From: Myxococcota bacterium
Lineage (GTDB): Bacteria > Myxococcota_A > Bradymonadia > UBA7976 > UBA1532
NCBI GenBank assembly: GCA_963169045.1
Contig: CAUJDF010000108.1
Location: 62,001 to 126,000 of the forward strand
Length of the DNA stretch: 64,000 bases
Direction of reading: 5' to 3'
The notes beneath the pieces were generated by a model, which was given only the letters and a program-made list of their open reading frames with translations, was not told the DNA's origin and did not search any database. The translations under genes were made by a program, and so were the position numbers. Position 1 is the first letter of the stretch; the number at the start of each line of letters is the position of its first letter. Positions 41,630 to 54,168 of the stretch are shown here, piece by piece.

Positions 41630-44600
41630 TCATTCGCGCGGGAGCAGGTTGGTCTCGTCGAGGCCGAAGCGGTACACGCCGTAGCGGCCGGCGGCGAAGT
41701 ACAGGTCGCGGCCGGCGACGAGCACGCGCTGCGGCCAGCCGCGCGTGGCGAACCAGGCCTGCGCGCGGGGCCGCGCGGCGTCGTCCAGGTTCATCACCAG
41801 CAGGCCGCCGGGCACCGCGAACAGCGCGCGGCCGGCCACCGCCTCGCGCAGCTCCGCCCAGGTGTCGACCGCCACGCTCGCCAGCGTCGCGAGGTCGGGC
41901 GCAGTGGCGTCGAGCACGGTCAGCGACTGGAACGGCGGCGCCTCCGCCGGCGCGACGACCGCGTCGCCGCCACCCGGCGCGACGCTGCCGCCGCCCGTGC
42001 CCACGCCGACGTCGACCGGATCGCTCGTCCAGCTCGGACGGTGGCTCACGAGCAGGTGGCCGGCGCCGTCGAGGCGGAGCGTGTGCACGTCGTCGCCGTC
42101 GAAGCGCCGCGTGCCCTCGAGCGTCGCCCGGTCGCCCTCGATGCGCAGGCGGCAGATCGCGGTGCGCGCGAGCTGGCCGTCCCAGAAGGCGTCGCGCGTG
42201 AACACGACGTCGTCCTCCACCGCCGCGAGCTCGCCGGGCACATTGACCGGCGCGCCCACGCGCACGTCGTCCGGGTCGCGCACGTCGGCGCGCACGAAGT
42301 GCCACGACACGTACGGCCGCGGATCGCCGGCCAGCGCCGTCGGGCGCGCGAAGGCCACGTACACCGCCTCGCCGGCGCCGAGCACCGCCGTCGTCTCCTG
42401 CTCGTCGGGCAGCGCCACCGTCGCCGCGAGGCGGGGCGCCGCCGACACGTCGAGCACGTGCAGGCGCACCGACTGCCAGTAGCGGTAGCGGTCCCACTCG
42501 TAACAGCTCCGCTCCGTCTCGACGCCCGCCGCGTCCACCGCCTCGCAGTCGAGCGTCTCGCCGTCGTAGAGGCATCGCTCGAGCGAGCCCGAGCAGATCT
42601 CGGGGCGGCCGTCGGTGGCGCGGCACTCGATGGCGCCGCCGTAGAAGGTGCAGGCGCGCTCGCCGTCCCACGCGCAGCCGCGCGGGCCCTCGACCGCCTG
42701 CGTGTAGCAGACGCGCTCGTGGCCGACGACGCGCTGCTGCGGCACGCGCTCGACGAAGACGAGCGACCCGCCGGCGGCGATCGCCTCGTGCCGCGGGTTC
42801 CACCCCCAGCCGCAGTCGAAGCAGGCGTCCGCGGGCATCGGGCGTCCCCATCCGCCGTTCCACGCCGCGGGCAACTCGCGGGTGACGAGCTCGCCCGCGT
42901 GCCGCGGGTGGGCGGGATCGGCGAAGTCCCACGCGACGACCGTCGACTCGACGGGCCACGGGTCCTTCGGATCGGCCGGCTCGACGGCGCGCGCCGACAC
43001 GACGACCAGCGTCGAGCCGACGGCGTGCACCGCCGCGCCGGCCGGCACCTCGACGCTCGCCACCGGGACCGCGTGGTCCGGATCGTCGGCCAACCGGACG
43101 ACCTCGAGGCGCGACGGCGGCAGCGCTTCGCCGTTGGCGGCGCCCCACCAGTCGTAGGCGCCGCGCGTGTCGTGGAGGCGCACGCCGTGGTCGCCGACCA
43201 CGAAGAAGTCCGCATGGTCGGGGGCGAGGTCGAGGCCGCCCAGCCGGGCCGGACGGTCCGGGTCGGACGCGTCGAAGAAGCTCAGCGCCTCGTCGGACAG
43301 GTTCGCCGGCATGTCGTCGGCGGCGCGGAAGGTGCGCCGCACCGGCGTGCCGTGGTCCATCACGCCGCGACGCGTCAGCGTCTCCTTCGAGAAGGTGAAG
43401 ATCTGCACGCCGGACACGTGTCGTCGCGCGTCGGCGTCCCACGCGGTGAACGGCAACAGCACGAGGCCGGTCTCGAGCGCGCCGCCGGGTCCCGACACGC
43501 GCACCGCGTCCTCGACGACGCCGAACGCCTTGTCGTCCCACTGCGCCGTCGACCAGCTCTCGGCGAACGCCACCTCGGCGCGCGCCACGAGGGGCTCGGG
43601 GTTCCCGAGGTCGGTCGTGTCGTAGAGGCTGACCGCCATCGTGCGGCCGACCTCGTCGTTCACGCCGATGCCGATCAGGCGCTCGCCGGCGAACGTGGCG
43701 CGGAAGAAGTCGTTCCAGCCGGAGACGATGAACTCCGCGCGCTCGGTGATCCGGCCCTCGCCGTCGACCTCGAACGCGTGGAAGGGGTCGCGCCGGAAGT
43801 ATGTGACGAAGAACGCCTTTTCGCCGAGGAAGAGCGTGGCGAACAGCTCCTGCCCGTCGCCGAAGGTCTTGTGGTCGAGCGGCGCGGGCCGGTCCACGTC
43901 CGAGGCGTCGAAGGTCTCGACGTGGTTCGTCCCGTCGCCCGACGAGACGACCTGCAGGACGTCGCCGTACAGGTCCATGTCGAACTTGTTGCGCACGCGG
44001 CCCGCCGCCTGGACGTCGCCGCCGGGGCGCATCGTGCCGTCGGGGCTGGCGATGTCGACGAGCGCGACGCGGCTCCGGCCGCCCTCGCGGGTCCAGTCGT
44101 TCCGGGCGATCATGAGGACCTCGGGGGTCGCCTGGACGTCCGCCACGTCGCCGCCGAGCCCCACCTCCCCGCGCGGGGCGAGCGTCCCGTCGGCGCCGAG
44201 CGTGAAGCTGCGCGCCGTGGTGACCGACTCCGAGACGGCGACGCCCTCTTCGTTCTCGACGGTCTCCCAGGTCTGGCTGACGACGTAGAGCGCGCTGCGC
44301 CCGCCGCCCTCGACCATGCGGCTCGTGCGGATGAAGCCCGGCACGCGCTGCCGCGCCCGCTCCACGGGCCGCTCGGGGTCGGCGACGTCGACCACGACGA
44401 CGAGGCCGCCCTCCCAAGCCTCGGGCAGCACGTCGTCGCGGGCGCCGTAGTAGCCGCGCCAGCCGTTCAGCAGCAGCACGGCATGGCGGCCCGCGACGTA
44501 CATCTCCACCGGCTCGCCCGGCACCTGCAGCTGGCCGGTGATCTGCGGCGCGGCGGGGTCGTGGAAGTCGACGACCTGCAGGCCGCGGTAGGGGTTGAGG

Positions 44601-44833
44601 TTCAGCAGCCGGCCGTCGCCGAGCAGGCGATAGATGTCGCCCTCGACGACCTCCGGCTCCTCGCCGCCGCCGGGCGCGCCGGTGTCCACGCCGCGATCGG
44701 GCTGGCGACCGTCGTCGCGGTCCGCCGACACATAGCGGTGGGGGGGCGACTCGCCGCCGGGATCGACCTCGTCGGTCTCGCAGCCCGGCAGCGCGAAGAG
44801 AGAGAGAAGGCAGAGGAGGAGTGGGGATCGCAT
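41630..44833 (-). CDS. Large beta-propeller-like lipoprotein
   Basis: A 1067-residue predicted lipoprotein (lipobox ALPGC). It is built of many short beta repeats that resemble a C-terminal beta-propeller family (PF09826-like) with phrases such as LLNLNPYRGLQVVDFHDPAAP, GGLVVVVDVADPERPVERAR, SLYDTTDLGNPEP and FFDASDPDRPARLGGLD. A Cys-rich insertion occurs near residues 660-770 (ADACFDCGWGWN through CSGSLERCLYDGETLDCEAVD). No catalytic site was seen. Propellers of this type are often protein-binding or metal-binding surface proteins. The ATG at 44833 directly precedes a clear signal peptide. It is downstream of the Cys-rich lipoprotein gene, 33 bases away, so may be co-transcribed. Confidence 0.82.
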   Translation of the reverse strand: MRSPLLLCLLSLFALPGCETDEVDPGGESPPHRYVSADRDDGRQPDRGVDTGAPGGGEEPEVVEGDIYRLLGDGRLLNLNPYRGLQVVDFHDPAAPQITGQLQVPGEPVEMYVAGRHAVLLLNGWRGYYGARDDVLPEAWEGGLVVVVDVADPERPVERARQRVPGFIRTSRMVEGGGRSALYVVSQTWETVENEEGVAVSESVTTARSFTLGADGTLAPRGEVGLGGDVADVQATPEVLMIARNDWTREGGRSRVALVDIASPDGTMRPGGDVQAAGRVRNKFDMDLYGDVLQVVSSGDGTNHVETFDASDVDRPAPLDHKTFGDGQELFATLFLGEKAFFVTYFRRDPFHAFEVDGEGRITERAEFIVSGWNDFFRATFAGERLIGIGVNDEVGRTMAVSLYDTTDLGNPEPLVARAEVAFAESWSTAQWDDKAFGVVEDAVRVSGPGGALETGLVLLPFTAWDADARRHVSGVQIFTFSKETLTRRGVMDHGTPVRRTFRAADDMPANLSDEALSFFDASDPDRPARLGGLDLAPDHADFFVVGDHGVRLHDTRGAYDWWGAANGEALPPSRLEVVRLADDPDHAVPVASVEVPAGAAVHAVGSTLVVVSARAVEPADPKDPWPVESTVVAWDFADPAHPRHAGELVTRELPAAWNGGWGRPMPADACFDCGWGWNPRHEAIAAGGSLVFVERVPQQRVVGHERVCYTQAVEGPRGCAWDGERACTFYGGAIECRATDGRPEICSGSLERCLYDGETLDCEAVDAAGVETERSCYEWDRYRYWQSVRLHVLDVSAAPRLAATVALPDEQETTAVLGAGEAVYVAFARPTALAGDPRPYVSWHFVRADVRDPDDVRVGAPVNVPGELAAVEDDVVFTRDAFWDGQLARTAICRLRIEGDRATLEGTRRFDGDDVHTLRLDGAGHLLVSHRPSWTSDPVDVGVGTGGGSVAPGGGDAVVAPAEAPPFQSLTVLDATAPDLATLASVAVDTWAELREAVAGRALFAVPGGLLVMNLDDAARPRAQAWFATRGWPQRVLVAGRDLYFAAGRYGVYRFGLDETNLLPRE

Positions 44834-45454: not shown

Positions 45455-45698
45455 GACCCAACCTCCCCGGGTCGATCCCATGCGGCCCGTCTCGCCCCGA
45501 GACAACGCAAGCGACGGGCCATGGCGCCGGGCGAGCGCCATCGTGGCGGGGCGCACGGATCGGCAACGTCGGGGGTGGGGGAGGTTACGAAGGTGGCCCG
45601 CAGGCCTGGGGGACGGACCAGTTGCGGCGCAGGGCCAAGGCGGGCATCCTTGGGCCTCGCCAGCACCGGCATGGCCGTGGAGGACTCGGAGGCGTGCG

Positions 45699-48600
45699 TT
45701 GAACCCCAGGCGTTTCACCGGCGCGGCGGTCGGTCTCGTCACGAACCTCGCCGATCCCGAGAAGCAGGGGCGCATCAAGGTCCGCTTCCCGTGGCTCGAC
45801 GACGAGGCCGAGAGCCACTGGTGCCGCATCTCGGCCAGTCAGGCGGGCAACAGCCGCGGCAACTTCGTGCGCCCCGAGGTGGGCGACGAAGTGCTCGTCA
45901 TGTTCGAGCGCGGCGATGTGCATCAACCCTGGGTGGTTGGTGTGCTGTGGAATGGCAAGGACGCGCCGCCCGGGCCGGGCAACGGCGACGGCAAGAACGA
46001 CCACAAGTTCTTCCAGAGCCGCGCCGGCCACCAGATGATCTTCAACGACGGCGCCGACGGCGGCTCGATCACCTTCCACGACGGCAAGCAGCGCCTCCAC
46101 ACCAAGATCGACGTCCCCGGCCAGCACATCCACAGCACGGCCGACTCCGGCTACATCAAGATCGAAGCGCCCGCGGGCCTCGTCCGCATGGAGTGCAAGG
46201 ACTTCAACCTGCACTCGACGGAGAAGACCGAGATCCAGGTGACGAACAGCCACCAGATCACGGTGGGTGGCACGCGCAAGGTCGCGATCTCACAAGAGAA
46301 CTACGACCAGATCGCCAGCAACAGCCTGTCGATCACCACGCCGAAGTTCTCGCTCGACGGCGTGACGCTGATGACCTCGACGGGGTCGACGTCGGTCACC
46401 GTCGGCAACATCGAGGCGGAGATCCAGCCCAAGCTCGAGATGGAGCTGTCGGGCCCGGTGACCCGCACCATCGGCAAGGCGAAGTTCAACGTCCAGCAGT
46501 TCCGCACCACGAACGGCGCCGAGCCGTCCGGTCCGCTCACGTGGACGACGGGGATGCTGAAGATCCAGGGCGAGGGGGCGACCGGCTTCGTCAGCGGCGC
46601 CGCGGCCACGATCATGGCCGGCCTCGTCAACGCCACCGGCGGCCAGGTCACCTACGGCAAGGACGCGGGCGGCGCCATCGGCGCGGCGAGCCTGGTGAGC
46701 TTCCTCGGCGGCCTGATGCTGCTGAACCCGGCGGCCGTCACCATGCCCGCCACCAAGATGCTCGACCCGATCATGGGCTTCGACGCCCACACGACCGGGC
46801 CCGCGCCGATCCCCGCGCCGCCGATCCCGTTCCACCCGTTCGCGAACATCAACCCCATCCTGCTCGACGTCCGGCTCAACACGCTCGTGAACTTCCGGCC
46901 GGCGGCGGGCTCGGGCGCGACCTCGGTGGGCGTGCACATGCCGCCCATCCCGGTGCCGCCGTGGCCGCCGATCCCGCTCACGTTCCGGCCGATGCTGGTG
47001 AGCGCGCTGACGGCGCTGTTCCTCGCGCCGTTCTCGGCGGCGGTCGAGATGGTGCGCGGCATGGTGAGCGCGAACCAGGCGACCGAGAGCCCGCAGGCGG
47101 TGCAGACCGTCGAGGACGGCAGCAAGCCGCACTGGTTCTTCCGCACCTTCCCGATGTTCGCCTCCCCCGGGAACTTCATCATGTTCCTGGTGGGCCTCCT
47201 GCCGTTCCCGGTGGCCAACGGCTCCATTTCGATCGCCTCGCCGTCGGTGCAGTGGAACGACACGCCGGCGGGCCTGGCGATCATGCCGTTCTGCAACACG
47301 TGCTCCGACATCCCCGTCGTGCCCAACGCGATGGTGATGACGTTCAGCAACGTGATGGTCGGCATCGACCTCGCGGCCATCCTCGACCAGCTCTTCTGGA
47401 ACGCGGTGCACGGGGCGGTCGGCTACGGCGTCGGGCGCGGCCTCGCGGCGGGCGGCAAGCGCATCGCCGCGAAGATCAAGGCCGGCGACAACCCGCGCCT
47501 GCAGAACGTCACCCAGAAGGTCTCCGACTTCCTCGGCTTCGACGCCTGCATCGCCAAGGGCCACCCGGTCGACGTCGTCAGCGGCACGCTCTTCGACGTG
47601 CAGGACGACGTCTCGCTGTGCGGCACGCACCCGCTCGTGCTGCGGCGCTTCCTCAACGCGAAGGCGGTGTCGGTCGAGCAGGGCGGCGTGCTCGGCATCG
47701 GCTGGCGGCTCACGCTCGACCAGCACCTGACGCGGCACGTCGAGGGCGATCGCAAGACGCGGTTCTGGGCGTGGCACACGCCCGACATGCGCGTGGTGCG
47801 CCTGCCCGACCTGACCGACGACGGTGAGTTCGCCTGGCTCCCGAAGGTCGCCGTCGAGTTCTGCCGCGCCGGCGAGCGGCTGTGGGACGTCACCGGCGCC
47901 GACGGCGTCGCCTGGCGCTTCGAGGAGACGACCGACGGCGAGGCGCGGCTCGCCTCGTGGAGCGACCGCAACGGCAACACCCACCGCGTCGAGTACGACT
48001 CGAGCGGCGCGGCGACGGGCCTCGTCGACGCGAGCGGGCGGCGCCTGCGCTTCGAGTACGCCGAGGGCAACCTCGCCGAGATCTGGCTCGACGGTCAGGC
48101 CGGCCGCTGGGCGCCGCAGCGTCTGCGCACCTACCGCTACGACGCCGAGGGCCGGCTCGTGGCGACGGCGGGCGGCGACGGGCAGGAGACGACGTACCGC
48201 TATGACGAGCGCGACCGGCTGACGCACGAGCGCCTGCCGACCGGCTATACGTGGCACTTCCACTACGACGGCCGCGACTGCGTCACCACCACCTACGGCG
48301 ACGACCTGCGGTACCACTTCACCTTCGACTACGCGCCCGAGGCCGGCGTCAGCAGCGTGCAGGACGGCCTCGGCCGCCGCACGCGCTACCAGTACGACGA
48401 GCAGAAGCGCGTGACCGCCATCGTCGATCCCGAGGGCGGCGTCACCCAGCGGCAGTTCGACGAGCACGGCCAGCTCCTCGTCGAGACCGATCCCGCCGGC
48501 GGGGCGACGGCCTACGAGTACGACGAGCGCGGCCGCGTGGTGGCGAAGTCGCTGCCGGGCGGCGGGCGGTACGCGTACGTCTACGACGTCCGCGGCCACC

Positions 48601-51047
48601 TCGTCGAAGAGACCGATCCGTGCGGGGCGGTGACGCGATACGTGCGCGACGGCCGCGGCAACGTGGTGCGCGAGCGGCGGCCGGACGGCGGCGAGATCAT
48701 GCGCCGCTTCGACGAGCGTGGGCGGTTGCTGGCGGAGCTCGACGCGCGCGGCGTCGAGCACCTGTACGTCTACGACGACGTCGGCAACCTCGTGTCCGAG
48801 AGCCACGACGGCAGCCGCACGCGGCACCGCTACGACGCCGCGGGGCGCCGCGTCGAGAGCGTCGACGCCGCCGGCGGCACGACGACGTTCGTGTACGACC
48901 CGGCGGGCCGCCTCACGCGCATCCGCGAGGCGGACGGCGCCGAGACGCGGCTCGCGTACGACGCGCTCGGGAACCTGAGCGAGCGCACGACGCCCGACGG
49001 CCGCACGTGGCGCTTCGAGCACGACGGCATGGGCCGCCTCGTCGGCAGCACGTCGCCCGCGGGGCGCCGCCGCCTGAGCGAGCGCGGGCTCAACGACCGC
49101 TTCGTGGCGCACCGGCGGCGCGGCCCCGAGGGCGACGCCGGCGCCGAGTACCGCTACGCGCACGACGCCTGCGACCGCCTCATCCGGCACGAGACCGCCG
49201 ACGGCGTCGTCGAGCGCTACGAGTACGACCCGGCCGGGCGCCTCGTGCGCACGGTGCTCGGCGACGGCGCCGATCGACGCTACCTGCCCGGGCCCGACGG
49301 CCGCCCGCTGCGGACGCAGACGCGCGACGGCTTCGTCCAGCAGTTCAAGCGCGACGCGCTCGGCCGCGCCGTCGAGGCGTTCGAGGCCGATCCCGGCGTG
49401 CCGCCGCGCTCGATGAAGGCGCCGCCCGGCGCGCCGCCGCCCGCGCCGCGGCCGGGCGAGCGCCGCGTCGCCCTGGTGCGGCGGCCCGACGGCGCCGTCG
49501 TGCAGGAGGTCGGCCCCCACGGCCGCGTGCAGAGCAGGTACGGCGCCGCGCACCGCCTGCTGTCCCAGGACGTCGACGGCGCGCGTCTGACGATCGAGCG
49601 CGACCAGAAGGGCCGCCCGGTGCGGGTCCGCACCCCCGACGGCGGCGCGTACGCGCTGCGCCACGAGGCGGGGGGCGGCACCATCGTCGTCACCCCGGGG
49701 GGCGCGACGATCCGGCAGAGCAGCGACCGGGTGGTCGTGCGCGACGCCGACGACCGCATCCCGTTCCTATACCGGGCGCGCTACGACGGCGACGGCCGGC
49801 GCGTCGCCGACGTCGTGCGCACGCGCCACGGCGCGGAGCAGGAGCGCAGGTACACCTTCGACGGCGACGGCCTGCTGGACGAGCCCCGGGACGCCGCGGG
49901 CAACCGCCTGCTGCCCGGCCTCCGCTACGCGGCGGGGCACCGCCTCGTCGAAGACGCGCACGGCCCGGTCGACTACGACGACTGCGGCCGCGTCCGCGCG
50001 CGCTCGACGGCCGACGGCCGCTGGCGGTACCGGTGGGACGACCTCGACCGCCTCTTCGAGGCCGAGGGCCCCGACGGCACGGTGGTCCGCTACCGCTACG
50101 ACGCGTTCCACCGCCTGGTGGAGCGCATCGAGGACCCCGTGCGCGGGCCCGTGCAGCGCCGCACCTTCCTCTGGAACGGCGACCGCCTCGCGGGCGAGCA
50201 CCTCCCCGACGGCGCGCGGCTGCGGTACCTCGTGCTCGAGACTGACGCCCACACGCCGTGGGCCTGCTTCGTCGAGGCGCCGGACGGCACGAAGGCGCTG
50301 CACCTGCTGCACGCCGACGCGCGCGGCGCCGTCATCGCCGCCACCGACCCGACCGGCCATCCCACGTGGTCGGGCGTCTACGACGCGTACGGCCGCTGCG
50401 AGGCGCGCGTCGCCGGCCTCGATCTGCGCGTCCGCCTGCCGGGCCAGTGGGAGGACCCGGTCACCGGGCTGCACTACAACCGCTTCCGCTGGTACCAGCC
50501 GGACTGGGGCCGCTACCTGAGCCCCGACCCGCTCGGCGTCGAGGGGGACTTCAACCGCTACGCGTACGCCGCCGGCGATCCGGTGCACCGCGTCGACCCG
50601 CTCGGCTTGATGTGCGATGACGCCGACACGCCCGCGGGGTCGAAGAAGAAGCCCCCGGGCGACACGAGCGAGTCGACGGCGCCGAAGACGACCGCTCCCC
50701 GGACGCCGTCGGCGGAGGGCGGAGATCCGCCGCCGTCCGGCCTCGATCGCGCCCGCGCAGCGCGAGATGCGAAGCTGGCCGAGATCGACGCGCTGCCGAG
50801 CAAGCAGCGCAACGAGGTCGCGACGGTCGTCGGCGTGCACGACCCGGCGACGGGAGAGGTCGCCGTCGGTGTGAAGCGCTCCGGCGTCGATCACGGCAAG
50901 TGCGCCGAGGATCTGGCCGCGGCGCAGCTGCCCGGCAACCCGGATCCCAAGTCGCTCGAGTTCACCGAAGTCATCCGCCCGCGCAACGACAAGGTCATCC
51001 CGCGTTGCGATCGTTGTACGGAGACGTTCGGCCCGGAGAAGCTCTGA
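45699..51047 (+). CDS. Spike-PAAR-Rhs polymorphic toxin with deaminase-like tip
   Basis: A 1782-residue effector. Domains in order: a VgrG/gp5-type OB fold (residues 7-90: GLVTNLADPEKQGRIKVRFP, VGVLWNGKD); a needle-like stretch; a PAAR-like DUF4150 region (about 505-556); a DUF6531-type start (GHPVDVVSGTLFDVQDDVSL); YD/Rhs repeats (about 735-1470); the Rhs core ending in DPLGL (about 1562-1638); and a 145-residue toxin. The toxin has H1732, C1735-A-E1737 and the C1770xxC1773 pair, resembling YwqJ-like deaminases that edit nucleosides or bases. The gp27-like N-terminal half of normal VgrG is missing. The TTG start has a GGAGG site six bases upstream. The candidate immunity gene overlaps its stop by one base. 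Confidence 0.88.
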   Translation: MNPRRFTGAAVGLVTNLADPEKQGRIKVRFPWLDDEAESHWCRISASQAGNSRGNFVRPEVGDEVLVMFERGDVHQPWVVGVLWNGKDAPPGPGNGDGKNDHKFFQSRAGHQMIFNDGADGGSITFHDGKQRLHTKIDVPGQHIHSTADSGYIKIEAPAGLVRMECKDFNLHSTEKTEIQVTNSHQITVGGTRKVAISQENYDQIASNSLSITTPKFSLDGVTLMTSTGSTSVTVGNIEAEIQPKLEMELSGPVTRTIGKAKFNVQQFRTTNGAEPSGPLTWTTGMLKIQGEGATGFVSGAAATIMAGLVNATGGQVTYGKDAGGAIGAASLVSFLGGLMLLNPAAVTMPATKMLDPIMGFDAHTTGPAPIPAPPIPFHPFANINPILLDVRLNTLVNFRPAAGSGATSVGVHMPPIPVPPWPPIPLTFRPMLVSALTALFLAPFSAAVEMVRGMVSANQATESPQAVQTVEDGSKPHWFFRTFPMFASPGNFIMFLVGLLPFPVANGSISIASPSVQWNDTPAGLAIMPFCNTCSDIPVVPNAMVMTFSNVMVGIDLAAILDQLFWNAVHGAVGYGVGRGLAAGGKRIAAKIKAGDNPRLQNVTQKVSDFLGFDACIAKGHPVDVVSGTLFDVQDDVSLCGTHPLVLRRFLNAKAVSVEQGGVLGIGWRLTLDQHLTRHVEGDRKTRFWAWHTPDMRVVRLPDLTDDGEFAWLPKVAVEFCRAGERLWDVTGADGVAWRFEETTDGEARLASWSDRNGNTHRVEYDSSGAATGLVDASGRRLRFEYAEGNLAEIWLDGQAGRWAPQRLRTYRYDAEGRLVATAGGDGQETTYRYDERDRLTHERLPTGYTWHFHYDGRDCVTTTYGDDLRYHFTFDYAPEAGVSSVQDGLGRRTRYQYDEQKRVTAIVDPEGGVTQRQFDEHGQLLVETDPAGGATAYEYDERGRVVAKSLPGGGRYAYVYDVRGHLVEETDPCGAVTRYVRDGRGNVVRERRPDGGEIMRRFDERGRLLAELDARGVEHLYVYDDVGNLVSESHDGSRTRHRYDAAGRRVESVDAAGGTTTFVYDPAGRLTRIREADGAETRLAYDALGNLSERTTPDGRTWRFEHDGMGRLVGSTSPAGRRRLSERGLNDRFVAHRRRGPEGDAGAEYRYAHDACDRLIRHETADGVVERYEYDPAGRLVRTVLGDGADRRYLPGPDGRPLRTQTRDGFVQQFKRDALGRAVEAFEADPGVPPRSMKAPPGAPPPAPRPGERRVALVRRPDGAVVQEVGPHGRVQSRYGAAHRLLSQDVDGARLTIERDQKGRPVRVRTPDGGAYALRHEAGGGTIVVTPGGATIRQSSDRVVVRDADDRIPFLYRARYDGDGRRVADVVRTRHGAEQERRYTFDGDGLLDEPRDAAGNRLLPGLRYAAGHRLVEDAHGPVDYDDCGRVRARSTADGRWRYRWDDLDRLFEAEGPDGTVVRYRYDAFHRLVERIEDPVRGPVQRRTFLWNGDRLAGEHLPDGARLRYLVLETDAHTPWACFVEAPDGTKALHLLHADARGAVIAATDPTGHPTWSGVYDAYGRCEARVAGLDLRVRLPGQWEDPVTGLHYNRFRWYQPDWGRYLSPDPLGVEGDFNRYAYAAGDPVHRVDPLGLMCDDADTPAGSKKKPPGDTSESTAPKTTAPRTPSAEGGDPPPSGLDRARAARDAKLAEIDALPSKQRNEVATVVGVHDPATGEVAVGVKRSGVDHGKCAEDLAAAQLPGNPDPKSLEFTEVIRPRNDKVIPRCDRCTETFGPEKL

Positions 51048-51589
51048 TGTCGTCGGTCATTCATGGAACGGATTGGGGCAAGCTTCGGCACGCGCACGGT
51101 ACGTGTGGGCACATGCCGGAGGTGTTTCGCAAGCTGGCCTCCGACGACGCGAAAGTCCGCCAGGAGGCCTACTGGGCGATCGACAACAACGTGGTCCTGC
51201 AGGGTGATCTGTATGAAGCTGCACCCACGGTGACCCTCGCGCTGATCGAGCTGGTCGGCGACGAGCGCCGAAGCGCCGGTCGGCCCGAGATCTACGAGCT
51301 GCTCGTCGAGCTGGCATACGGGAACGCGCCACCGTCGATGACCGTCGACTTCATGGGTGAGGCCTGCACCCTGAAGGCGGCGACGGTTCGCGCGCTCGCG
51401 AGCGGTGTGCCCTGGTATCTCCGCGATCTGGCCGACGGCGCGGGCGATGACGTGCGCGATCGGATCCTCGAGTTGCTCTCCCTGCTGAAGGACGAGGACG
51501 CGCTGGACGTGGCCCTGGTCCGCTCTCGGATGGAGAGCACGACGAACCCCGAGCTCAAGCAGTCGCTTCGGGCGCTCGTGGAGGGTTGA
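51047..51589 (+). CDS. Candidate immunity protein, HEAT-like
   Basis: A 180-residue soluble, helical protein (KLASDDAKVRQEAYWAIDNNV, LIELVGDER, ALVRSRMESTTN) resembling HEAT repeats. It is immediately downstream of the toxin, starting at the ATG inside the TGATG overlap, which is the usual position for a protein that neutralises a polymorphic toxin. Hand count of 51061-51240 gives about 63 % G+C, against about 77 % in 49981-50160 within the Rhs core, a sign of separate origin. Its function is inferred from position. Other possibilities are an unrelated HEAT protein. Confidence 0.72.
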   Translation: MSSVIHGTDWGKLRHAHGTCGHMPEVFRKLASDDAKVRQEAYWAIDNNVVLQGDLYEAAPTVTLALIELVGDERRSAGRPEIYELLVELAYGNAPPSMTVDFMGEACTLKAATVRALASGVPWYLRDLADGAGDDVRDRILELLSLLKDEDALDVALVRSRMESTTNPELKQSLRALVEG

Positions 51590-51732: not shown

Positions 51733-52755
51733 TCACGGGGGCTGCCGCTTCCGCTCGGCCTCGAGGCGCGCGAGCATCGCCTCCTGCTCGGCGAGGAGCT
51801 CGCGCGCCGCCGCCAGCTCCGTCCTGAGCTGGCGGCGGCTCGCCTCGGCGGCGTCGTACGCGAGCTGCAGGTTCTCGGCGTCGTCGCGCGCGGCCCGCAG
51901 GTTGTACTCGGCGACGTCGAGCTCGGCCTGGGCCGCCTCGCGGGCGCGGTCGTGCTGGCGGACCTCGCGCTGCAGGTCGCGCAGCTTCGCCTCGACCTCG
52001 GCGCGCGCCTCGGCGGCGGCCGCCAGCGCCGCCCGCAGGCGCTCCGCCTCGACGAGGGCGGTGGTCAGGTCGCGCTCGGTGACGCCGCGGGCCCGCTCGG
52101 CCTCCTCGGCGCGCGTGGCGAGCTCGCGGGCGCGCTCCCGCGTCACGAGGGCCTGGTCGCTGAGGCTGACCACCTGCGCGCGGTCGCGCTCGCGGTCGCG
52201 CTCGAGCTGGGCCGCGCGGCGGGTGGCCTCGTCGATCTCGCGGCGCGCCTCGGCGAGCGCCGCCTCGGCCTGCAGCCGCGCCTGGCGCTCCGCCTCGAGC
52301 GTGTCGACGGGGAGCGCCGCGAGGCGCGCCTCGAGCCGCTCCGCCCGCGCCCGCCACTCGTCGCGCTCGGCCGTCAGCTGCGCGATCTCCGCGGCGGGCC
52401 CGTCCACCGTGGGCTGGGTGGGGGCCGGCACGTCCTCGACCTTCGTCTGCTGGCGGACATCCTCGAGCAGGATCCAGATCGCGAAGAGGCCGAAGCGCAC
52501 GTGGTCGCCGTGGGCCAGCGTCGTCCGCGTCACCGGGACGTCGTTGACGAACGTGCCGTTCACGCTGTCGAAGTCCTGCAGGTGGAGGCGGCCCTCCTGC
52601 AGCCAGAGGCGCGCGTGCATCCGGGACACCGACGTCTCGTCGGTGCGGATGGCGCAGCTCCACTGCCGCCCGACCTGCAGCTCCTCGCCCTCGGCGAGGG
52701 CCCATTCGCGCGGCGTCCCGCCGCCCTCGTGCACGAGCTTCGCGCGTCGTCTCAT
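51733..52755 (-). CDS. FHA-domain protein with long coiled coil
   Basis: A 340-residue soluble protein. Residues about 5-105 are a forkhead-associated domain, which binds phosphothreonine: GR29-30, SRMH 44-47 and NGT 66-68 are in the conserved places. A linker is followed by a coiled coil of about 220 residues, rich in Ala, Glu and Arg. FHA proteins are common partners of Ser/Thr kinases and of contractile secretion systems. Here it lies 25 bases upstream on the minus strand of a peptidoglycan-targeting gene, whose stop precedes it in the same direction. The ATG at 52755 begins the fold directly. Confidence 0.87.
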   Translation of the reverse strand: MRRRAKLVHEGGGTPREWALAEGEELQVGRQWSCAIRTDETSVSRMHARLWLQEGRLHLQDFDSVNGTFVNDVPVTRTTLAHGDHVRFGLFAIWILLEDVRQQTKVEDVPAPTQPTVDGPAAEIAQLTAERDEWRARAERLEARLAALPVDTLEAERQARLQAEAALAEARREIDEATRRAAQLERDRERDRAQVVSLSDQALVTRERARELATRAEEAERARGVTERDLTTALVEAERLRAALAAAAEARAEVEAKLRDLQREVRQHDRAREAAQAELDVAEYNLRAARDDAENLQLAYDAAEASRRQLRTELAAARELLAEQEAMLARLEAERKRQPP

Positions 52756-52779: not shown

Positions 52780-54168
52780 TCAGCGGTAGGTGTAGAACGT
52801 CGCCCAGTCGCCGACGGTCGACGTGTTCGGTCCGGTGACCTCGCTCTGGGTGCCGGAGTTGCCGTCCACCGTGCGCACCTGCAGCGAGCGGTGGCCCGTC
52901 GGGCCGAGCGTCGCAGGGTCGTGGGGCTGCACCCACACCACGACCGCGTGGTGCTGCATGCTGTTACGGTAGGCCACGTCGCCCACCTGCGGGATCTTCG
53001 TGTTCTGCAGGCTCGACGAGACGCCGGTGCCCACCGCCCAGTTGCCGATCGGCAGGCCGGCGGTCTTGGCGGCCCACGTCGCGAAGATGCCGCACCAGTG
53101 GGGCAGGACGTCGGTCTTGTACTCGTAGACCCAGTTGCCCTGCTCGTCCTTCTTCTGGGGGACGTTGCCGTCGACGGGGTGGCGCAGGAGCGGCTGGTTG
53201 GCGTACTCGCCGCCGAACGCGGTGTCGAAGTACTTCTTCAGATCGCGCCAGCCGGGCCGCGCCGGCTTGCCCTGCTCGTCCTGGTCGGTGAGCGGGGCCT
53301 TCGCCTTCACCTTGCCGACCTCGCCGAGCGCGAGGCCCGCCATCGCCGCCCGGCCCGACGCGTAGGCGTCGGCGGGGCCGCTCTGCACGGGCATGCCGGC
53401 GTCCTTGCCGGCGAGGCTGCCGTAGAACGCGCGCATGTTCTCGATGCGTCCGAGGTAGGCCGTGATCTTGGGCGGCGGGCCGCCGCTGAACGCCTGGGAC
53501 ACCCAGCGATGCAGCGCGTCGAGACAGTCGTGCTGCACCGGGGCGGGCGGCGGCGCCGTCGGCGTCGCCTCGAGCGCCGGCGGCAGGCCCACCGCGATGA
53601 CGGTGAGGACGTCGGCCATGGCCTGGTCCTCGGGGTCCTTGCCGAGGGCGAGCAGCGTCGCGGTCTGTTGCACGGCCGGCGCGAGCGCCGTCGCCGCCGC
53701 GGGGTGGGCCTGGGCCACCTCGCCGATGAAGCCCGAGTAGCCTTCGGCCAGCGACTTGCGCTCCACCAGCGTGAGCGCGCCCTCGGTCTGTCCGCCGGGC
53801 TGCGGCGGGTCGTCCTTCTTCGGCTTGCGACCCGGCGCGTCGAGCGCGCCCCACGTGATCGGCCCGACGATGCCATCGGGGGAGAGCGTCCGCGCCTGCT
53901 GGAAGCGGACCACGGCGGCGCGCGTCATCGGCCCGAAGATGCCATCGGCGTCGAGCGACTCGCCCTGGCCGTTCAGCGCCTGCTGGAGCGACTGCACCCA
54001 CGGACCGCGGCTGCCGAGCCGCACCACCGGACGGTCGCCCATCTGTTGCTGGACGTAGCCCGTGAAGGCCGCCGCCGCGCCGCCGCCCGCCGGGGCGCTG
54101 CCCGCCGCCTCGCCGGCGCCGCGCGTCTGTGACGCGACCGCGCTGCTCTGCGCCTTCTCGTGCTCCAT
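52780..54168 (-). CDS. Peptidoglycan-binding, CHAP/amidase-like protein without signal peptide
   Basis: A 462-residue protein. The first 35 residues are a low-complexity tail, with no signal peptide. Residues about 48-110 resemble a peptidoglycan-binding domain (VRLGSRGPWVQSLQQAL, GIFGPMTRAAVVRFQ). The C-terminal half resembles a Cys/His amidase-like fold of the CHAP type: C359 in LPHWCGIFATWAA, GDVAYRNSMQHHAVVVW and RTVDGNSG. Enzymes of this sort cut bacterial cell walls. A signal-less cell-wall enzyme near a spike-type toxin could be a contractile-system effector (inference). It lies upstream of the FHA gene. An alternative is a phage-like lysin. Confidence 0.82.
   Translation of the reverse strand: MEHEKAQSSAVASQTRGAGEAAGSAPAGGGAAAAFTGYVQQQMGDRPVVRLGSRGPWVQSLQQALNGQGESLDADGIFGPMTRAAVVRFQQARTLSPDGIVGPITWGALDAPGRKPKKDDPPQPGGQTEGALTLVERKSLAEGYSGFIGEVAQAHPAAATALAPAVQQTATLLALGKDPEDQAMADVLTVIAVGLPPALEATPTAPPPAPVQHDCLDALHRWVSQAFSGGPPPKITAYLGRIENMRAFYGSLAGKDAGMPVQSGPADAYASGRAAMAGLALGEVGKVKAKAPLTDQDEQGKPARPGWRDLKKYFDTAFGGEYANQPLLRHPVDGNVPQKKDEQGNWVYEYKTDVLPHWCGIFATWAAKTAGLPIGNWAVGTGVSSSLQNTKIPQVGDVAYRNSMQHHAVVVWVQPHDPATLGPTGHRSLQVRTVDGNSGTQSEVTGPNTSTVGDWATFYTYR

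Follow-up and report, generated by a model that had tools for sequence, protein, structure and literature searches.

Comparison with described spikes and effectors

In the spikes of described extracellular contractile injection systems (eCIS), including Afp8/Pvc8 and those of AlgoCIS, Anabaena and Streptomyces, hub and spike form one chain, and eCIS cargo is usually described as carried in the hollow tube, where it is loaded via signal peptides, as in the Photorhabdus virulence cassette (PVC, PMC11495950). In the type VI secretion system (T6SS), the effectors RhsA (P. protegens) and Rhs1/Tre23 (P. laumondii) combine a PAAR and transmembrane region, an Rhs shell, autocleavage and a C-terminal toxin (PMC8765631, PMC8636562), while DUF2169 proteins are reported to act as chaperones of DUF4150 PIPY tips, which bear the motif P(I/V)P(Y/F) (PMC11883445). 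Here we compare these systems with a gene at positions 45699-51047 of the forward strand of a 64,000-nucleotide stretch of a Myxococcota genome (the window). The gene is one uninterrupted frame of 1782 codons for a single 1782-aa protein, an OB-Rhs fusion that begins with a gp5-type OB fold and ends with a toxin.

The fusion shares its OB fold with the eCIS spikes, in which the matching part begins at residues ~350-375, and with T6SS VgrG (TssI). In contrast to both, no gp27-like N-terminal half is present in the same chain; the hub has a gene of its own, and the Rhs shell and toxin are part of the spike chain. Single-chain VgrG-Rhs proteins are already known, as 8QJA (PDB, 1879 aa, annotated T6SS) likewise joins the two and matches the A1 profile at E 2.6e-12. 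However, 8QJA appears to keep its gp27 half, since its alignment to the A1 profile starts at residue 388, as in full VgrGs, whereas the window protein lacks gp27 and has a PAAR-like module. RhsA and Rhs1/Tre23 share the layout of PAAR/transmembrane region, Rhs shell and C-terminal toxin but rely on EagR and on a VgrG that is a separate protein, whereas the window protein includes its OB spike and the chaperone gene next to OB-Rhs in related loci is DUF2169. The T6SS sets of DUF2169 and DUF4150 also place DUF2169 beside a PAAR-like module, which here carries the motif PIPF; they differ in that DUF4150 is not matched in Pfam here and that the present set occurs in genomes without detected TssC.

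We propose, with a probability of roughly 0.6, that the gene product is an exchangeable spike, loaded with a toxin, of an eCIS-type contractile injection machine with a split hub. If so, an Rhs effector fused to the spike would be a different route of eCIS loading, one in which the choice of toxin is changed by swapping spikes; we found no mention of Rhs in the eCIS literature searched. DUF2169, reported to be strictly tied to the spike complexes of T6SS, would also be uncoupled from them.

Co-occurrence and phylogeny suggest a link to a split eCIS-type hub

Searches of the source genome, run family by family, returned seven Phage_base_V matches, comprising a full T6SS VgrG (contig C73), paired gp5-only sets (C28 and C48), a second OB-Rhs gene (C48) and the window gene. 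Each gp5-only set has a DUF2169 gene, which follows OB2 on C28 and separates OB2 from OB-Rhs on C48. The sequence-only reading of the window had supposed a contractile system, of Tss or eCIS type, with its baseplate genes elsewhere, and both types are indeed present: a T6SS (C61), and, on a further contig (C14), an eCIS-type cluster encoding Pvc16_N, two sheaths, two gp19-type tubes, an Afp7-like open reading frame (ORF), gp25, baseplate J and Tail_P2_I. The hub of the C14 cluster is a 362-aa protein with gp27 only, and this hub and the full VgrG are the only two Phage_GPD proteins found in the genome. No OB spike gene was found near the hub, and no Walker-A ATPase was seen in the cluster. A weak, divergent sheath match on C1 (L023) falls within a prophage-like stretch and was set aside, and PF06761 was an uninformative marker for TssM, since nothing scored above cut-off even in this T6SS-bearing host.

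The gp27-only hub accompanies the fusion in relatives. Within the order, OB-Rhs with its whole N-terminal region is present in 8 of 16 genomes and the gp27-only hub in 9, and all 8 OB-Rhs genomes also have the hub. T6SS core genes, by comparison, are not always alongside: five of the eight carry both the eCIS-type hub and a T6SS, while G001, G002 and G009, all drafts, have OB-Rhs and hub with no TssC or full VgrG detected. Conversely, G010 has TssC and a full VgrG, and neither OB-Rhs nor the gp27-only hub was found in it. Fisher p values for co-occurrence with OB-Rhs are 0.0014 for the hub and 0.31 for T6SS, to be read as descriptive since the genomes are related and the tests are not independent. 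Phylum-wide, 106 of 113 genomes with strong gp5-only OB matches also have the hub, with cut-offs set by hand. In a survey of 377 sampled Myxococcota genomes, with three candidates scored per genome, no family but the present one (f1) yielded the full fusion.

The operon in related Myxococcota comprises a coiled coil, two gp5-only OB proteins, DUF2169, OB-Rhs and a presumed immunity gene, with DUF2169 immediately 5' of OB-Rhs in the 8 loci read. Toxin tips vary among OB-Rhs loci, sister pairs excepted. The window gene and the OB-Rhs gene of G009 (L065) are orphans, and both genomes keep a set that lacks OB-Rhs (L008 and L066). DUF2169 genes are also present in the three genomes in which TssC was not found (L058, L059 and L066 in G001, G002 and G009). 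At least two spike sets, with differing OB-Rhs lineages, occur in each of G006 (L062, L063) and G005 (L060, L061). The coiled-coil-like protein, of ~200-300 aa and with no Pfam match, lies 5' of OB1 in most sets (for example L008:8064-8960, L009:17242-17904, L059:6755-7390 and L066:5169-5840).

In a tree of OB domains, the T6SS VgrGs form one long branch set apart with support 100/99, and the OB-Rhs proteins are nested within the family f1 lone OBs; the alignment has few columns, and two short 'lone' rows are OB-Rhs proteins cut by contig ends. Around the hub in nine f1 clusters, in stretches read up to ~10 kb on either side, there is no OB gene. In family f31, by comparison, two OB genes come directly after the same hub type, within the cluster. 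Co-occurrence, phylogeny and these in-cluster relatives make an eCIS-type spike the best reading. The second f31 OB gene has a Gly/Ala/Ser-rich repeat tail (L105:11266-14088, where it runs to ~700 residues; also L107 and L110).

Domain architecture of the fusion

Pfam and NCBIfam profiles place Phage_base_V, DUF6531, RHS repeats and the Rhs-associated core in this order from the N-terminus. Since Phage_GPD has no match among these profiles in the 1782-aa protein, the gp27 half is taken to be absent and the chain to start at the OB fold. The sequence-only reading had described just this arrangement, a single polypeptide with the OB fold of VgrG first, the gp27-like half missing and the toxin last, and its coordinates, frame and domain order are upheld by the profiles, Foldseek and VIA-align. 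It misplaced the PAAR-like part, which it set at residues 480-660: this part spans ~350-562, and from 621 on the chain is DUF6531/Rhs. Extension of the frame upstream to 44832 was rejected, given overlap with opposite-strand ORFs and a good Shine-Dalgarno sequence at the TTG start.

The structural match to gp5/VgrG on which the sequence-only claim hinged was found in both eCIS and T6SS spikes. An AlphaFold2 model of residues 1-684 is fair up to ~320 and poor beyond 340, and its top Foldseek matches are the AlgoCIS (7aef_q, best at E 5.2e-9), Anabaena and Streptomyces CIS spikes, with T6SS VgrGs close behind and the R2 pyocin spike and P2 gpV also among the matches. VIA-align gives Z 10-12 against several spikes, while over the stalk unrelated beta-helix proteins score equally high. 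A profile search of PDB sequences likewise returned eCIS spikes and T6SS VgrGs, down to E 4.7e-32, the top scorer being a T6SS VgrG.

By sequence similarity, residues ~350-562 probably form a PAAR-like module with hydrophobic segments. They match a stand-alone 264-aa protein of a Methylocalor plasmid (33% identity over 227 columns, pairwise E 3e-23), encoded in an operon with the order VgrG, DUF2169, DUF2169, PAAR-like protein and Rhs, so that the separate spike, PAAR-like and Rhs modules of Methylocalor, minus gp27, correspond to one chain in the window protein. The Pfam PAAR_motif match is weak (E 0.051, in one of eight orthologues), and DUF4150 has no Pfam match among the eight OB-Rhs orthologues checked.

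The Rhs shell spans residues 621-1637, with RHS repeats in 15 stretches and an Rhs-associated core at 1561-1637 that ends with DPLGL at 1633-1637. DUF6531, YD repeats, DPxGL core, variable tip and downstream gene are all present, as in Rhs polymorphic toxins.

The tip is supported as having a cytidine-deaminase superfamily fold, on the basis of a model of its last 119 residues built with one homologue in the alignment (mean predicted local distance difference test score, pLDDT, 80.6). The 41 best Foldseek rows are deaminases throughout, beginning with blasticidin S deaminase (E 5.5e-3, probability 0.99), and VIA-align against blasticidin S deaminase 2z3g gives Z 9.6 with a root-mean-square deviation of 3.0 over 96 residues. 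The deaminase fold anticipated from sequence was thus recovered, and the C1735-A-E1737 and C1770xxC1773 motifs are where they had been read. The label 'YwqJ-like' is supported at the level of the cytidine-deaminase superfamily, as the tip shares fold, CAE and CxxC motifs and polymorphic-toxin end position with YwqJ and other toxins of this superfamily; placement in the YwqJ type finds no such support, as no Pfam deaminase family was listed for the tip under a permissive cut-off (E ≤ 10, HMMER filters active). The single homologue found is the C-terminal end of another Rhs protein (L139, G051), with 37% identity and CAE, IRPR and CxxC in common. No tip relatives were found in phages and viral contigs. 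A match in G174 (E 8e-4, one stop) was not confirmed, and matches to a Sanguibacter aldehyde dehydrogenase (L137, with VHDPATGE in common) and a Rhodococcus plasmid were dismissed as chance. From its position, the product of the 180-aa ORF that overlaps the toxin stop is presumed to be the immunity protein; no relative of it was found next to the tip homologue in L139.

Proposed mechanism and competing explanations

We infer mounting, firing, cage closure, autocleavage, catalysis, target, toxicity and immunity as follows. The OB fold and beta-helix would make up a gp5-like spike and dock on the gp27-only hub of the C14 cluster, and the PAAR-like, hydrophobic module would cap the spike and help membrane entry, with a DUF2169 chaperone from another locus of the genome keeping it competent. 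The tip would sit inside the Rhs shell until autocleavage near DPLGL sets it free. Once in the target, most likely a rival bacterium, the deaminase-fold tip would deaminate either a nucleotide or a nucleic acid, and the producer would be shielded by the overlapping 180-aa protein.

Several observations weigh against an eCIS-type spike. None of the eCIS-type clusters of family f1 was found to contain an OB-Rhs gene, and the link is therefore drawn from co-occurrence and phylogeny, not from linkage. The Fisher values share the relatedness noted above, absences are soft because the draft genomes are incomplete, and G007 (75% complete) has the hub with no full OB-Rhs. The window copy is itself an orphan, with no other OB gene on the contig and no DUF2169 in the stretches read around it. 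The PAAR-like region is modelled at pLDDT <50, and three Rhs cages on a homotrimeric spike could pose a steric problem. One tentative version of the eCIS-type spike is that it is drawn from the dispersed gp5-only paralogue sets, one member bearing the Rhs-caged toxin; it may then be an OB1/OB2/OB-Rhs heterotrimer, and therefore carry one cage per particle.

The literature assigns DUF2169 and DUF4150 to the T6SS (PMC11883445), a system that the source genome also has. The main rival, which we consider unlikely, is a T6SS-delivered Rhs effector whose OB-PAAR-like part stacks on the full VgrG of the host, the eCIS link being incidental. The host carries TssC and a full VgrG, DUF2169 chaperones T6SS spikes of VgrG and DUF4150 (PMC11883445), and Methylocalor has the same modules as separate genes beside a full VgrG; yet neither TssC nor a full VgrG was detected in three OB-Rhs genomes, G010 is the reverse, and in the tree a long distance separates the OB domains from those of T6SS VgrGs. 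Less likely again is a spike set, made up of lone OBs, DUF2169 and OB-Rhs, that serves more than one contractile machine and uses whichever hub is present. The five of eight OB-Rhs genomes with both systems would fit such sharing, as would PAAR proteins reported to be common to eCIS and T6SS lineages (PMC8651086), whereas the T6SS-only G010 lacks the whole set. Rhs biology includes known orphan cassettes, and with no lone OB or DUF2169 genes nearby, the window copy could be a silent cassette of this kind, a reservoir for toxin-tip recombination that is not itself mounted. We hold this to be improbable, as the 1782-codon frame is intact, the Shine-Dalgarno sequence and overlapping downstream ORF are kept, and a similar orphan occurs in G009, both genomes having the set without OB-Rhs.

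Features of the locus and neighbouring genes

Table 1. Coordinates of the fusion gene, its predicted parts and the adjoining ORF in the window.
Feature	Residues	Position	Strand	Basis
OB-beta-helix-PAAR-like-Rhs-toxin fusion gene, 1782 aa		45699..51047	+	ORF; Pfam/NCBIfam
GGAGG Shine-Dalgarno		45688..45692	+	6 nt 5' of TTG start at 45699; read directly
gp5/VgrG-type OB fold	11-84	45729..45950	+	Phage_base_V PF04717, E 2.1e-25; Foldseek
Predicted beta-helical stalk	~100-345	45996..46733	+	AlphaFold2 strands, pLDDT ~60-80 to residue 320; partial beta-helix matches
Probable PAAR-like module with hydrophobic segments	350-562 (PIPF 375-378)	46746..47384	+	Homology, hydrophobic peaks
DUF6531, first part of Rhs shell	621-698	47559..47792	+	PF20148, E 1.1e-11
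Rhs/YD repeat shell and Rhs-associated core		47793..50609	+	PF05593, E 3e-79; NCBIfam TIGR03696, E 5.7e-23
Toxin tip, predicted cytidine-deaminase fold	1638-1782 (145 aa)	50610..51044	+	Model, Foldseek, VIA-align
CAE motif (predicted Zn ligand and catalytic Glu)	1735-1737	50901..50909	+	Kept in L139
CxxC motif (predicted Zn ligands)	1770-1773	51006..51017	+	Kept in L139
Presumed immunity gene, 180 aa, HEAT-like		51047..51589	+	Overlaps toxin stop as TGATG; HEAT_EZ E 0.006, below cut-off

Upstream of the fusion gene, a large ORF for a beta-propeller lipoprotein-like product lies on the opposite strand (41630-44833). Downstream, genes for an FHA-domain protein (51733-52755) and a peptidoglycan-binding-domain protein (52780-54168) occupy the reverse strand, convergent with the toxin operon.
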